Source of the DNA: Flavobacteriaceae bacterium CG_4_10_14_3_um_filter_33_47
Lineage (GTDB): Bacteria > Bacteroidota > Bacteroidia > Flavobacteriales > Flavobacteriaceae
Length of the DNA: 46,058 nt
NCBI GenBank assembly: GCA_002784145.1
Contig: PFKE01000117.1
Location: forward strand, 1 to 46,058
Direction of reading: 5' to 3'
The notes under the pieces were generated by a model. It worked only from the letters and a program-made list of their open reading frames with translations, made no database searches and was not told the DNA's origin. Positions within the stretch are counted from its first letter, which is position 1. Each line of letters begins with the position of its first letter. Both the position numbers and the translations under genes were made by a program. Below, one piece after another: positions 16,792 to 46,058 of the stretch.

Positions 16792-16899
16792 GCAATCAAA
16801 AAAATAATTAATTAACAAGTATCAACGAGAGATCAACGTTTATCGAAGGATAAGATTAAGACCTTAATTCATAAGCACTCTCAAAACTAAATTTAAAAA

Positions 16900-36732: not shown

Positions 36733-36805
36733 GCGGGAGTAGCTCAGTTGGTAGAGCGTCAGCCTTCCAAGCTGAATGTCGCGAGTTCGAACCTCGTCTC
36801 CCGCT
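36733..36805 (+). tRNA. tRNA-Gly, anticodon TCC
   Basis: The cloverleaf is complete: acceptor GCGGGAG/CTCCCGC, D arm GCTC-AGTTGGTA-GAGC, anticodon stem TCAGC/GCTGA with loop CTTCCAA and anticodon TCC at 36766-36768, variable loop, T arm with GTTCGAAC, discriminator T. CCA is not encoded. It reads GGA and GGN codons through wobble. Confidence 0.97.
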
Positions 36806-42621: not shown

Positions 42622-43263
42622 TTACTTTTTACGGCTTATGCTTAAGCCGTCTCTTATTGGTAATAAGATCGTTTCTAATCTATCATCTTCCTTTAGTAGT
42701 TTATTGTATTCTAAAAGCGCTTTCGTTGAAACGTCATCAGGCTTTACGGGTTCAACAACTTTTCCACTCCAAAGCACATTATCTGATAATAGGATGCCTC
42801 CAGAATTTAATTTGTCAATAATACTATTAAAGTACAAAGGGTAATTATCTTTGTCGGCATCAATAAAAATAAGGTCAAATGTTTTATCCAAGGTCGGAAT
42901 AATCTCTAATGCATTTCCTAAATGTTGAATCATTTGATGTCCAAATGCTGATTTGTCAAAATACTTTCTTTGGAAATCTACCAATTCTTCATTGATATCA
43001 ATGGTATGTAATTCACCATCATTTTGCATGCCTTCTGCTAAACACAAAGCGGAATATCCTGTATAAGTTCCAATTTCTAATATATGTTTAGGGTTTACTA
43101 ACTTTGAAATCATGCTTAAAAGCCTTCCTTGATAATGACCGCTAAGCATACGTGGTTGTAAAATTTTTTGAAACGTCTCTCTGGTTAGCTTTTGAAGTAG
43201 TTCTGGTTCGTCTTCAGAATGATTAACTACATAATTATCAAGGTCTTCAGGGATAAAATGCAT
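42622..43263 (-). CDS. SAM-dependent O-methyltransferase
   Basis: The 213 residues form a class I SAM methyltransferase of the catechol/caffeoyl-CoA type. Motif I is ILEIGTYTGYSALCLAEG, followed by LHTIDINEE, LIFIDADKDNYPLYF for metal binding and LSDNVLWSGKV. The family includes enzymes methylating catechols and a tRNA wobble hydroxyuridine (TrmR), so the substrate is open. Its ATG overlaps the stop of the upstream decarboxylase gene by one base (TGATG), so translation is probably coupled. Confidence 0.88.
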   Translation of the reverse strand: MHFIPEDLDNYVVNHSEDEPELLQKLTRETFQKILQPRMLSGHYQGRLLSMISKLVNPKHILEIGTYTGYSALCLAEGMQNDGELHTIDINEELVDFQRKYFDKSAFGHQMIQHLGNALEIIPTLDKTFDLIFIDADKDNYPLYFNSIIDKLNSGGILLSDNVLWSGKVVEPVKPDDVSTKALLEYNKLLKEDDRLETILLPIRDGLSISRKK

Positions 43264-44345
43264 CAGGACTGTATTCTATGTATTAGTTTTTGTTTTCCTT
43301 CTTCATCATCGCCACAAAGCCATTGAATAACATTGTCTTGCCAGATTGCGTCACGTTCTGTTTCGCTAATAATGTGTCGTTCCATGGCAAGATCTAATAA
43401 TTTTCCAGGATAGGACGATTGCTTGATACTTTCCATTTCACCTAATGGATATGGATCATCTAAGCCCATTAGTACTTGTTTTGATCCTTGATTTTTAATT
43501 AATAACTCTAACGAACCCGTATCATGAACCAAGGTATCAAAGAATATATTTTTATGTCCTACTGCTTTTCTTGGGTGATGTTTTCCTTCAAACAAATCGG
43601 GTCTTCCATCAAATCCTTGAATCCGTCTTCCTAAATTAATTTGCGCTAATTGACCTCCATGCGCAAAACAAGATCTCATGTTTGGGTATTTTTCCTGATA
43701 GCCATTTAAGGTCAAAAAATGATAAGCATCAGCGCATTGGGCCAACATCCAAATTAGGTGAAATCTCCAAGACGTATTTTCCAGTTTTATAAACTTTTCA
43801 CCATCATATGGGTGAATTTCTAAGGCTAAATTATATTGATTGGCCAGTTCAAAAATAGGCTCATTTTCTTCATCAAAAATGCAACGCCATGTGCCAATGG
43901 TATCCATATAGTGGGTAGGTAAACATAAAAGCTGCATGCCATGGGTTTCTACACATCGCTCAATTTCCCAACAGGCACTTCTGACAAATCCGGGGTGAAC
44001 CACAAAACCACAGGTGAATTTACTGGGATTTTCATGTTGGATACGTGCATTAAAATCGTTTTGAAAACGAAGTGCTTGTTTCATTTCTTCAACACGTAAC
44101 CCATTACCATACAATTGAGATAAATTTAAGACAACGGCATGATCAATGTTAAAGCGCTCCATCCATTCCAATTTTTCATGCAAAAAGAAACTAGAATCAG
44201 TTACAGGCCTGCTCCAATCTTTTTGAAGCATGAATTTTCTATCCTTATCTACCCAAAAAATACCTTTTTCACGCATGAAATCAGGGATTTCTTCCGGATA
44301 AGGCAATAAATGGGAGTGGCCGTTTATTCTAAGTTTAGGTGTCAT
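43263..44345 (-). CDS. Aminocarboxymuconate-semialdehyde decarboxylase-like amidohydrolase
   Basis: ACMSD removes CO2 from 2-amino-3-carboxymuconate 6-semialdehyde, the product of the dioxygenase encoded just upstream. The 360 residues have the metal site His10 and His12 (NGHSHLLP), His178 in EIHPYDG, His229 in CFAHGG and the Asp pair 296-297 in GLDDPYP. These fall close to the positions known for ACMSD (9, 11, 177, 228, 294). The gene lies 6 bases after the 3-hydroxyanthranilate dioxygenase gene, which strongly supports this function. It diverts the pathway away from quinolinate and NAD. Confidence 0.88.
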   Translation of the reverse strand: MTPKLRINGHSHLLPYPEEIPDFMREKGIFWVDKDRKFMLQKDWSRPVTDSSFFLHEKLEWMERFNIDHAVVLNLSQLYGNGLRVEEMKQALRFQNDFNARIQHENPSKFTCGFVVHPGFVRSACWEIERCVETHGMQLLCLPTHYMDTIGTWRCIFDEENEPIFELANQYNLALEIHPYDGEKFIKLENTSWRFHLIWMLAQCADAYHFLTLNGYQEKYPNMRSCFAHGGQLAQINLGRRIQGFDGRPDLFEGKHHPRKAVGHKNIFFDTLVHDTGSLELLIKNQGSKQVLMGLDDPYPLGEMESIKQSSYPGKLLDLAMERHIISETERDAIWQDNVIQWLCGDDEEGKQKLIHRIQS

Positions 44346-44351
44346 AAAAAT

Positions 44352-44885
44352 TTAGTCAATTTTCACTTTTTTTGGAGGCTCCATGGTTTTTCCACAATTA
44401 GGACAAGTACGTTTCTCTAAATCGCCATAATACTTGTCGAAAATTTTAGGCATGTCGGTTTCAATGTTTTTTACAGTAAAATCTTCTTCATAGAGTTTGG
44501 TAACACAATGTTCACAAAACCAGAGTAGGGCATCACGCATGCCTTCGGGACGTTTGTATTCAATAACCAAACCAACGGTGTTTGCGCCACGTTGTGGTGA
44601 GTGTGGCACTTTTGGCGGCAATAGATAAATATCACCTTCTTTAATATGCACATCTTTTGGTGTGCCTTTGTCAATTATTTTTAAAACGATATCGCCTTCT
44701 ATTTGATAGAAAAATTCAGGCGTTTCATTGTAATGATAATCTTTTCTGTTATTGGGTCCGCCAACGACCATGACAATAAAATCGCCATCTTTCCAAACCA
44801 CTTTATTGCCAACTGGTGGTTTAAGTAAATGTCGGTTTTCTTCAATCCAAGCTTTAAAATTTAATGGCGAAACTAGTTTACTCAT
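44352..44885 (-). CDS. 3-hydroxyanthranilate 3,4-dioxygenase
   Basis: This cupin enzyme opens the ring of 3-hydroxyanthranilate in the kynurenine branch of tryptophan catabolism. The 177 residues carry the iron ligands His51 and Glu57 (KDYHYNETPEFFY) and His95 (PKVPHSPQRG), with Arg47 and Arg99 as likely substrate contacts. A second, rubredoxin-like iron site is present in the C-terminal tail: Cys124 and Cys127 (FCEHC) with Cys161 and Cys164 (CPNC). That is the bacterial homodimer type. The symbol nbaC/kynC is used for such genes elsewhere. It leads the operon. Confidence 0.95.
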   Translation of the reverse strand: MSKLVSPLNFKAWIEENRHLLKPPVGNKVVWKDGDFIVMVVGGPNNRKDYHYNETPEFFYQIEGDIVLKIIDKGTPKDVHIKEGDIYLLPPKVPHSPQRGANTVGLVIEYKRPEGMRDALLWFCEHCVTKLYEEDFTVKNIETDMPKIFDKYYGDLEKRTCPNCGKTMEPPKKVKID

Positions 44886-44901
44886 GTGTATTTTATTTTT
44901 G

Positions 44902-44964
44902 TGCGTGTCCCCTTTGGGTCTGAATTTAGGTGCTACAAAGTAGCTCGCTTTTATCCCTCACGCA
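44902..44964 (-). ncRNA. Structured element upstream of the 3-hydroxyanthranilate dioxygenase gene
   Basis: On the minus strand, TGCGTG (44964-44959) and CACGCA (44907-44902) form an outer 6-bp stem. They enclose hairpin GCTAC-TTT-GTAGC (44944-44932) and hairpin CCC-AAA-GGG (44918-44910, approximate). A three-way junction results. The 3' end lies 17 bases before the start codon. It resembles dispersed elements with GCGTGAGGGAT...GGGACACGC that I recall in flavobacteria. Whether it is a repeat, an RNA or a regulator is open. Confidence 0.4.
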
Positions 44965-45014
44965 GAATTAGTATAAAGTTACAAACTTTTTGTTTGGTTC
45001 CATCAAACTAAAGA

Positions 45015-46058
45015 TTATTCAGAAATAACAAACGTTTTTCTTTCTGGTCCAATGCCTTTTAAGGTTAATGATTTCCATGTCTTGGGTAAAATTGGATTTT
45101 TTTGAATGATACCATCATCACTTATATCAAGACCACCAAAACCAAATAAAACGACTTGTAACATCCCGCCAGCACCAGTTGCAAAATAAGGGTTGTTGCT
45201 GGTTGCAGCTTCTGCTAAGGCTCCAAAAGGTGGTCGTTTATTCGGTTCATAGCTTCTTTTGAATAATCTATAGGCCTCTTCGGCGTTTCCAAGTCTTGCA
45301 TATAACACGGCAAAAACGGATTGTCCCATGGCTGGCCCTTCTTCAGCTAGTTTAGGTTCGTAATATTTTAGATCTTTTTTAATGGTTTCTTCATCAGAAA
45401 TAACGTGTAAGGGATACGACAAAAGGTTAACATCGGCTTGTTTTATGATAGCACCATCATAGTTGCTATGTTCCATGGTAGTGCCATCAGGAAATTGATG
45501 TATTTTAATATGGGAGGCTACCTTAGCCCAATCTGGATTCGGAAACTCACCAACGTTGTTGGCCGCTTCTGTGGCAAATTCTAAAGCCGTTATTGCAGAG
45601 CCATTGGTAAAGGCATTATCATCTACGTTTGGAGCAAACTCGTTGGCACCAACCACATTTTTTATACTATAACTCCCATCATTATTTAAAACCGATCTGC
45701 TAACCCAATAATCTGCAATCTCTTTCATCATGGGATAACCGCGTTTTTTTAACCATTCTTTATTTTGGGTAACACGGTAGTAATTCCAAAAAGCTATTGC
45801 CACATCTGCAGTAATATGATGTTCAAAGGTACCGGTAAGTGCCCAAGCTGGGGTTGCTTCTTCTCCTGTATCATCACTTTCCCAAGGAAACATGGCTCCT
45901 TTATAGCCAAAATTGATGGCTTTTTCTTTAGCTTTATTAATTCTGTCTGATCTGTAATTGACTAATGAACGTGCAATGTCCTGATTTAACATTAATAGTG
46001 GAGGAAACATCCAGAGTTCTGTATCCCAAAAAATATGACCATTGTAGTTTTGAGATGA
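45015..46058 (-). CDS. GH65-type glycoside hydrolase/phosphorylase, N-terminus missing
   Basis: The frame is open from the right edge. The visible 347 codons are the catalytic and C-terminal part of an (alpha/alpha)6 barrel protein. It begins with NYNGHIFWDTELWMFPPLL, the conserved GH65 segment. GANEFAPNVDDNAFTN holds the likely catalytic Glu. The end, VLFGFGGLDISDDGI, fits the C-terminal beta-sheet domain. GH65 members act on trehalose, maltose, kojibiose or glucosyl-galactose, so the substrate is not decidable. The N-terminal beta-sandwich domain lies outside the window. It precedes the kynurenine genes on the same strand. Confidence 0.85.
   Translation of the reverse strand, partial: SSQNYNGHIFWDTELWMFPPLLMLNQDIARSLVNYRSDRINKAKEKAINFGYKGAMFPWESDDTGEEATPAWALTGTFEHHITADVAIAFWNYYRVTQNKEWLKKRGYPMMKEIADYWVSRSVLNNDGSYSIKNVVGANEFAPNVDDNAFTNGSAITALEFATEAANNVGEFPNPDWAKVASHIKIHQFPDGTTMEHSNYDGAIIKQADVNLLSYPLHVISDEETIKKDLKYYEPKLAEEGPAMGQSVFAVLYARLGNAEEAYRLFKRSYEPNKRPPFGALAEAATSNNPYFATGAGGMLQVVLFGFGGLDISDDGIIQKNPILPKTWKSLTLKGIGPERKTFVISE

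Follow-up and report, generated by a model that had tools for sequence, protein, structure and literature searches.

We found that the 5' leader of haaO, the 3-hydroxyanthranilate dioxygenase gene in this flavobacterial contig, consists almost entirely of a degenerate type-A copy of the dispersed Flavo-1 repeat. In our reading, to which we give a probability of roughly 0.6, the copy is a REP-like repeat that acts as a constitutive, permissive leader and not as a switch. The window, by which we mean the whole stretch of 46,058 nucleotides analysed, carries haaO and its leader near its right end on the minus strand (Table 1). Elsewhere it holds an S4-Flavobacteria ribosomal leader (positions 16838-16876, plus strand, 42 bits) and a tRNA (36733-36805, plus strand).

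Table 1. Features of the haaO region in the window, all on the minus strand; RNA strands are written 5' to 3'.
Feature	Position	Strand	Basis or remark
Amidohydrolase gene, next downstream of haaO	43263..44345	-	
haaO, 3-hydroxyanthranilate 3,4-dioxygenase, 177 aa	44352..44885	-	ATG at 44885
17-nt tail from element core to ATG	44886..44902	-	A at -15 to -11 (44900-44896)
Outer stem P1, 3' strand CACGCA	44902..44907	-	folding
Flavo-1-like element, type A hairpin (GCGT...ACGC), degenerate copy	44903..44963	-	R1 model, match 44898-44967
Hairpin 2 (P3), CCC-AAAG-GGG	44909..44918	-	folding
Inner stem P2, 3' strand, UCA instead of expected CCC	44921..44923	-	1 pair broken, 1 G-U
Hairpin 1, GCUAC-UUU-GUAGC	44932..44944	-	folding
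Inner stem P2, 5' strand GGG, intact	44955..44957	-	R1 alignment; cf. L044, L045, L047
Outer stem P1, 5' strand UGCGUG	44959..44964	-	folding
Predicted -7 promoter box TAACTTTA	44974..44981	-	predicted transcription start 44969
Family 65 glycosyl hydrolase gene, upstream of haaO, codirectional, runs off the window	45015..46058	-	

The gene is identified by NCBIfam NF009763 (269 bits) and TIGR03037 (250 bits), each over its cut-off, and by Pfam 3-HAO, as the initial annotation had proposed. That annotation had also described two hairpins within a 6-bp outer stem, together spanning 63 bases and ending 17 bases before the start codon. RNAfold returns this architecture on the window leader: P1 (T-GCGTG with CACGC-A in the minus-strand DNA) has 6 bp and spans 63 bases, both hairpins form, and P1 ends 16-17 nt before the ATG. 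When the coding sequence is included, the minimum-free-energy fold differs from the junction and the centroid retains it. The folding energy is about what chance gives for this composition (z of -1.02, -1.30 and -1.09), and the idea that energy by itself marks the fold as special was rejected. The fold is real nonetheless, as comparison with relatives settles. In an alignment of 29 haaO copies (A1), 98.9% of pair cells are paired and 7 of the 15 pairs have changed on both sides. None of 500 shuffles reached the covariation score, so the stems of this leader covary, as a regulatory RNA had been expected to show; the count of further pair types was reached by 15 of the 500. A separate RNAalifold run returned the identical 15 pairs. 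Conserved unpaired bases in A1 are GAA, AAAG and GAC. Two larger alignments, both made to the model and therefore biased towards it, agree: in 97 dispersed copies (A3), pairing holds in 98.2% of cells and both-side change is seen at 13 of 15 pairs, against 97.6% and 9 of 15 in 71 haaO copies (A4: 55 of the 56 sources from the leader set described below plus 16 named loci, 69 distinct rows). P1 is paired in 99.7% of cells over the 69 distinct haaO-leader copies, and its fifth pair is G-C in 34 rows and U-A in 33. The hairpin inside P2 is variable, with three types or more. Among 51 haaO copies that match a clean-copy regular expression, 15 carry an AGCUACC-type hairpin (type A), 21 carry GCAUCCUUUU...AAAAGAUAUAGC (type B) and five carry UUGGAGCUC...GAGCGACU (type C), the other ten falling under no regular-expression type; the types vary even among sister species.

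The dispersed flavobacterial element of which the sequence was said to be reminiscent proved to be the Flavo-1 family (RF01705). The window copy falls short of the RF01705 gathering score of 42 bits, and it gave no RF01705 match in a 401-base search at E≤10, nor in the genome search or in locus L042. Since the copy is Flavo-1-like but unlisted under RF01705, we based a model, R1, exclusively on haaO-leader copies from other species (29 in all), with the window copy excluded. R1 scores the window copy at 44.1 bits, with an E-value of 1.8e-8 when the window is searched and of 1.2e-6 when the genome is. In the own genome it gives at least 26 matches at E≤1 and at least 19 at E≤1e-5, the window copy among them; these copy numbers are lower bounds, the best 150 of 1059 candidates having been scored. 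The same genome has nine RF01705 matches over the cut-off, eight of which are also R1 matches. Further copies came from an own-genome search for GTGAGGGATNNAAGCG-like sites, and four of the other copies were checked in Rfam, with two over the RF01705 cut-off and two below. Among haaO-leader loci with a copy, five of 17 pass that cut-off, all of type B, and 12 lie under it. An exact DNA repeat was rejected as a candidate: apart from itself, the window copy finds only weak partial matches in its own genome.

The window copy is eroded. Compared with the type-A copy of locus L044 from the same genus, GCGUAAAGCCCGAC has become ACCUAAAUUCAGAC, a change at 5 of 14 positions, and in the R1 alignment standard pairing fails at three of the model's seven inner pairs. 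P1 and both hairpins are whole despite the damaged P2, for which RNAfold offers an alternative, shifted GGAU/AUUC pairing. The RF01705 core helix, RGG/CCY with GAUUGAAGC and GCGNAAAGCC, is damaged in the window, where its 5' strand is kept and its 3' strand changed; it is intact in L044 and L045. These two loci have intact copies and share with the window the end of a family 65 glycosyl hydrolase gene upstream. Eroded copies (L042, L056, L098, L105 and L136) keep P1 whole, with L080 as the exception; this could mean that P1 itself has a role in haaO, a point against the reading preferred here. Judged by its sequence, the window element is a worn, degenerate relative of Flavo-1 and no formal RF01705 member.

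Copies of the element are scattered through flavobacterial genomes. At E≤1e-5, R1 copies were found in 24 of 40 genomes (the own genome included), with at least 30 in the richest; the best 113 candidates per genome were scored, so the counts are lower bounds. We sorted 81 non-haaO copies, 21 from the own genome and 60 among the best matches listed from five others (G003, G004, G006, G020 and G023), by their neighbours, as codirectional (++ 23, -- 35), convergent (+- 10) and divergent (-+ 7), with 6 unclassified. Probable orthologues recur in this set, which makes tests on it non-independent, and gene edges come from simple open reading frame calls. Several copies within the genus share neighbour size and spacing and therefore look orthologous and old. 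A third of the set (27/81) ends, in antisense, no more than 8 nt from a stop codon, for example TAA directly abutting TTTGGGCGTTACC (L227-L286 and own loci). Gene edges within 10 nt lie on the 3' side of the element in 31 cases and on the 5' side in 8 (p 0.0003, counted by hand over the 75 classified copies, probable orthologues included). The 3' end of the element thus tends to face a reading frame, as far as these gene calls indicate. In locus L012 of the same genome, a Flavo-1 copy (1490-1571) stands about 60 nt upstream of a tmRNA gene (1634-2026).

REP elements are short structured extragenic repeats built on a single palindrome, and the Y1_Tnp transposase (RAYT) is their classical partner, although REP elements occur with or without it. 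We found Y1_Tnp in 6 of 16 genomes with five or more copies and in 8 of 24 with fewer. Y1_Tnp (PF01797) is absent from the five same-genus genomes G002-G006, which hold 8-25 copies; both occur together in the own genome (19 copies, five Y1_Tnp) and in G012 (20 copies, 14 Y1_Tnp). Over all 40 genomes the two counts show no association (Spearman 0.15, p 0.34), and mobilisation by RAYT was accordingly rejected. The small repeat suggested by the initial annotation is supported as regards dispersal: the own-genome matches are scattered among unrelated genes in both orientations. Movement itself was not seen directly, as neither a target-site duplication nor an enzyme was found.

We then compared the leaders of haaO across species. 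With a threshold of E≤1e-40, 104 of 149 genomes gave a match to haaO; with E≤1e-80, 141 of 397 did. The 131 leaders considered (L042-L172) are those of fetched loci whose haaO is about 73% or more identical to the query, more distant and a few other matches being left out. Of these, 55 carry an R1 copy at E≤0.01, every one of them in sense, and 52 still do at E≤1e-4; 29 of the 131 leaders had gone into building R1. The remaining 76 gave zero R1 matches on either strand at E≤0.01. The regular expression for clean copies found 51, and five more were added by eye (L077, L080, L132, L136 and L141); R1 supports 55 of these 56, all except L105. Weak matches among the 55 are L056, L098 and L080 (E 0.0005 to 0.005), that of L080 being doubtful because it overlaps the gene start. 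Clean elements are 57 to 155 nt long. Of the 51 clean copies, 33 leave a gap of 15 nt between ACGC and the ATG, seven one of 16, five one of 17, five one of 18 and one a gap of 14. A clean copy is also present in 28 of 80 public-contig loci, a set partly overlapping the 131, including those of Yeosuana marina, Gelidibacter sediminis, Winogradskyella species such as W. wichelsiae, and Psychroserpens species. Mapped on a haaO DNA tree with 50 rows, the presence of a copy requires 12 or more changes, compared with 16.3 +/- 1.9 (minimum 11) in 200 shuffles; a protein tree gives 13 changes. Each tree holds 50 of the 51 full-gene loci (the DNA tree is without L061), and both are poorly resolved, with 9 of 47 branches starred in the DNA tree. 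L043, the best-supported sister of the window (100/93), carries a type C copy. Such a weak tree points to labile presence, and not to an exact number of gains.

The haaO leader gap of other species is occupied by different sequences. Eight loci (L088, L092, L096, L097, L140, L150, L151 and L156) have a different structured leader in the last 70 nt before the haaO ATG, consisting of a CTCAAAnACCCGATTTGAG-like hairpin, a CTCC..GGAG hairpin and a G-run 6-9 nt before the ATG; the G-run could pair with the CCC of the first loop in a pseudoknot-like manner. L093 and L168 are related to this leader, and a second form occurs in L074, L142 and L147. It has no convincing Rfam match, and its strict pattern, the only form searched for, matched five times in 15 genomes, three of these in haaO leaders. 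By eye, we recognized a CTGTCATTACGAGG...CAATGACA-like inverted-repeat family in the gap of L046, L062, L075 and L123, and a GTCATTCC...GGAATGACA-like family in that of L068, L085, L108, L148 and L170. Automatic repeat-class labels were loose, with several plain leaders under 'CTGTCATT', and we used the loci seen by eye and dropped the counts.

The alternative that survives best is that the element is a purely selfish or passenger repeat, tolerated in a short AT-rich gap and without effect on haaO. This is consistent with the other repeats that fill the same gap in other species, with the labile presence on the haaO tree and with the erosion of the window copy. It fits less well with the single orientation of the haaO copies (55 of 55 sense, whereas orientation is mixed genome-wide), with a spacing held at 14-18 nt and with the near-complete retention of P1. 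Occupancy also argues against it. In the sole comparator, a TPR gene represented by 30 fetched loci from 48 matched genomes, R1 matches occur in five loci, all in sense and one of them weak (E 0.003), so that haaO is occupied more often (56/131 versus 5/30, p 0.011; by the model, 55 and 5). This TPR gene was chosen because in the own genome it too carries a copy in sense, with 15 nt spacing. On balance, we regard a mere passenger as unlikely.

We then investigated the promoter and the translation start. In 62 of the 131 leaders, haaO is preceded by a motif, TTGTAACTTTA, often over the stop codon of an upstream gene that we take to be a short-chain dehydrogenase (SDR) from its DGGRTKSL-like end. 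The SDR gene end is found in 110 of the 131 leaders and is absent in the window (44964-45015), L044 and L045, where the glycosyl hydrolase end replaces it and TTGTAACTTTA is still there. Of the 21 leaders with no detected SDR gene end, 11 have the motif, the window among them, and this retention suggests a promoter. According to the accessible text of PMC9723704, and also of PMC6847099, the -7 box reads TAnnTTTG at positions -12 to -5, which TAACTTTA resembles. The conserved box would place the start of transcription upstream of the element and thus the element within the mRNA. Counted from the TA of the box, GCGT follows after 18-21 nt in 14 of 17 leaders. Where no clean copy is present, 30 of 45 leaders have 27-39 nt between box and ATG and the other 15 have more, some of them through other repeats. 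The flanks of filled leaders (18-21 plus 15 nt) add up to this common empty-leader length, with no duplication resolvable, and the copy therefore sits inside a short leader. It appears to have been added mid-leader, about 6-9 nt after the predicted start.

In the accessible text of PMC6847099, Flavobacterium is described as initiating without a Shine-Dalgarno sequence, with adenines at -12 and -13 able to stimulate initiation and with low pairing from -20 to +20. The A-run of the window tail is in register with this A-12/A-13 determinant. Adenine occupies positions -13 to -10 in 90-98% of leaders with the element, compared with 61-80% of leaders with no copy, and both -13 and -12 are A in 47 of 51 leaders with a clean copy against 48 of 75 without (p 0.0003). 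These adenines are supplied by the CCCAAA tail of the element, which many other genomic copies share. The A-rich motif is also seen, if less strongly, in leaders with no copy, which counts against the reading preferred here. Averaged over -15 to +15, predicted pairing is 0.368 in 51 leaders with the element and 0.371 when the element is left out; it is 0.384 in the 80 leaders that have no clean copy, an eroded copy being present in five of them. As predicted pairing is the same with and without it, the element is not predicted to hide the start, and sequestering of the start codon was rejected.

The stems contain few G-U pairs. Their share is 0.7% in 70 dispersed copies of at most 100 nt and 0.9% in A1, whereas TPP riboswitches drawn from the same family and order and processed identically have 6.2% in 30 sequences and 4.2% in the best 21. 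In pair cells, this is 7 of 1043 for the dispersed copies versus 26 of 419 for TPP (p 2e-9), or 14 of 332 when TPP is limited to its 21 best rows. Complementarity may thus matter on both strands or as DNA; this is a hint and not proof, because the cells count inherited copies and not events. The scarcity of G-U also speaks against a classical RNA switch. Among the dispersed copies of A3 there are 13 G-U and 4 A-C among 1435 cells (p 0.05), an excess that is at most a weak sign of RNA-level constraint; among the haaO copies of A4, there are 13 G-U and 9 A-C among 1046 cells (p 0.52).

A cis-regulatory RNA specific to haaO, in which the junction would sense a ligand or protein, for example a kynurenine-pathway metabolite, and control translation, would account for the recurrent leader position, the single orientation, the fixed spacing and the covariation. 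However, the same element is scattered over, and lies antisense to, unrelated genes, more than half of the haaO leaders have no match, and G-U pairs are rare and, in haaO copies, not clearly above A-C. Pairing of the start region is unchanged and P2 is damaged in the very copy under study. A unique haaO riboswitch was rejected because of the dispersal of the element, which is restricted to neither this gene nor its pathway, and we consider regulation of this kind improbable. The covariation in leaders of one gene by which the initial annotation would have recognized a regulatory RNA is present in haaO leaders, with all copies in sense, but the family is not specific to haaO, and the idea of translational control finds no support in the pairing, the damaged P2 or the G-U content. 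Very improbable is a structure that matters only as DNA, in the form of a cruciform or of a hairpin in single-stranded DNA that some unknown recombinase would recognize, for which the nearly Watson-Crick-only compensation and the presence of both orientations relative to genes would speak, but against which stand the RNA-like appearance of the conserved unpaired GAA, AAAG and GAC, the G-U over A-C count in dispersed copies, the lack of association with Y1_Tnp as the classical candidate enzyme, and the confounding of the G-U contrast by inheritance, cells being copies and not events.

A tolerated or co-opted repeat that works as a permissive leader is therefore the most likely explanation, and a switch is unlikely. 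The Flavo-1-like element may have arisen as a REP-like repeat and spread as a folded unit, its copies being retained at gene edges, more often with the 3' end towards a reading frame. In haaO, a copy that came to lie between the promoter-like box and the ribosome landing zone would be the first structured part of the mRNA. With its CCCAAA tail on the A-rich initiation motif at -13 to -10, a sense copy at 15 nt would preserve translation, and other orientations or spacings in this leader were probably purged. The element would then be a constitutive permissive leader, perhaps a stabiliser of the 5' end. Alternatively, a single ancestral insertion followed by exchange of hairpin types through gene conversion would equally give one orientation, with no spacing filter. 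As a more tentative and rather doubtful extension of the permissive-leader reading, Flavo-1-like elements might be portable gene-edge modules: their tail would serve as an A-rich initiation motif, sense copies at 15 nt could be adopted as leaders, the haaO copy would have been re-swapped lineage by lineage, and the G-U-poor stems would reflect a folded form that is copied or recognized as DNA.

We compared the element with three known systems. Like the TPP riboswitch (RF00059), it forms a structured leader immediately before a metabolic gene. It differs from TPP in showing no restriction to a gene class, in having no visible expression platform and in its G-U content (0.7-1.2% in the element, 4.2-6.2% in TPP). 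Its copies resemble REP elements in being short, structured and extragenic, in occurring in both orientations and often at gene ends, but the element is a three-way junction where a REP is a single palindrome. A literature search gave no lead from the letters of the element, from three-way-junction repeats in Bacteroidetes or from REP in Flavobacteriaceae. For Flavo-1, the accessible text of a 2021 Flavobacterium psychrophilum transcriptome study (PMC9723704) reports sense and antisense copies and no real clue to function. The closest likeness is to Flavo-1 itself (RF01705), which, as far as the accessible text of Weinberg et al. 2010 (PMC2864571) describes it, has the same core, RGGAUUGAAGC...GCGNAAAGCCY, and the same dispersal in Flavobacteriaceae. 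The RF01705 model leaves both flanks unpaired, whereas the R1 family adds a covarying outer stem, P1, and the hairpin P3. The Flavo-1 question thus gains a structure extended by two helices, a test of strandedness by G-U content and a gene-edge polarity, and haaO provides one gene with natural variation in the presence, absence, type and spacing of the element across many species.
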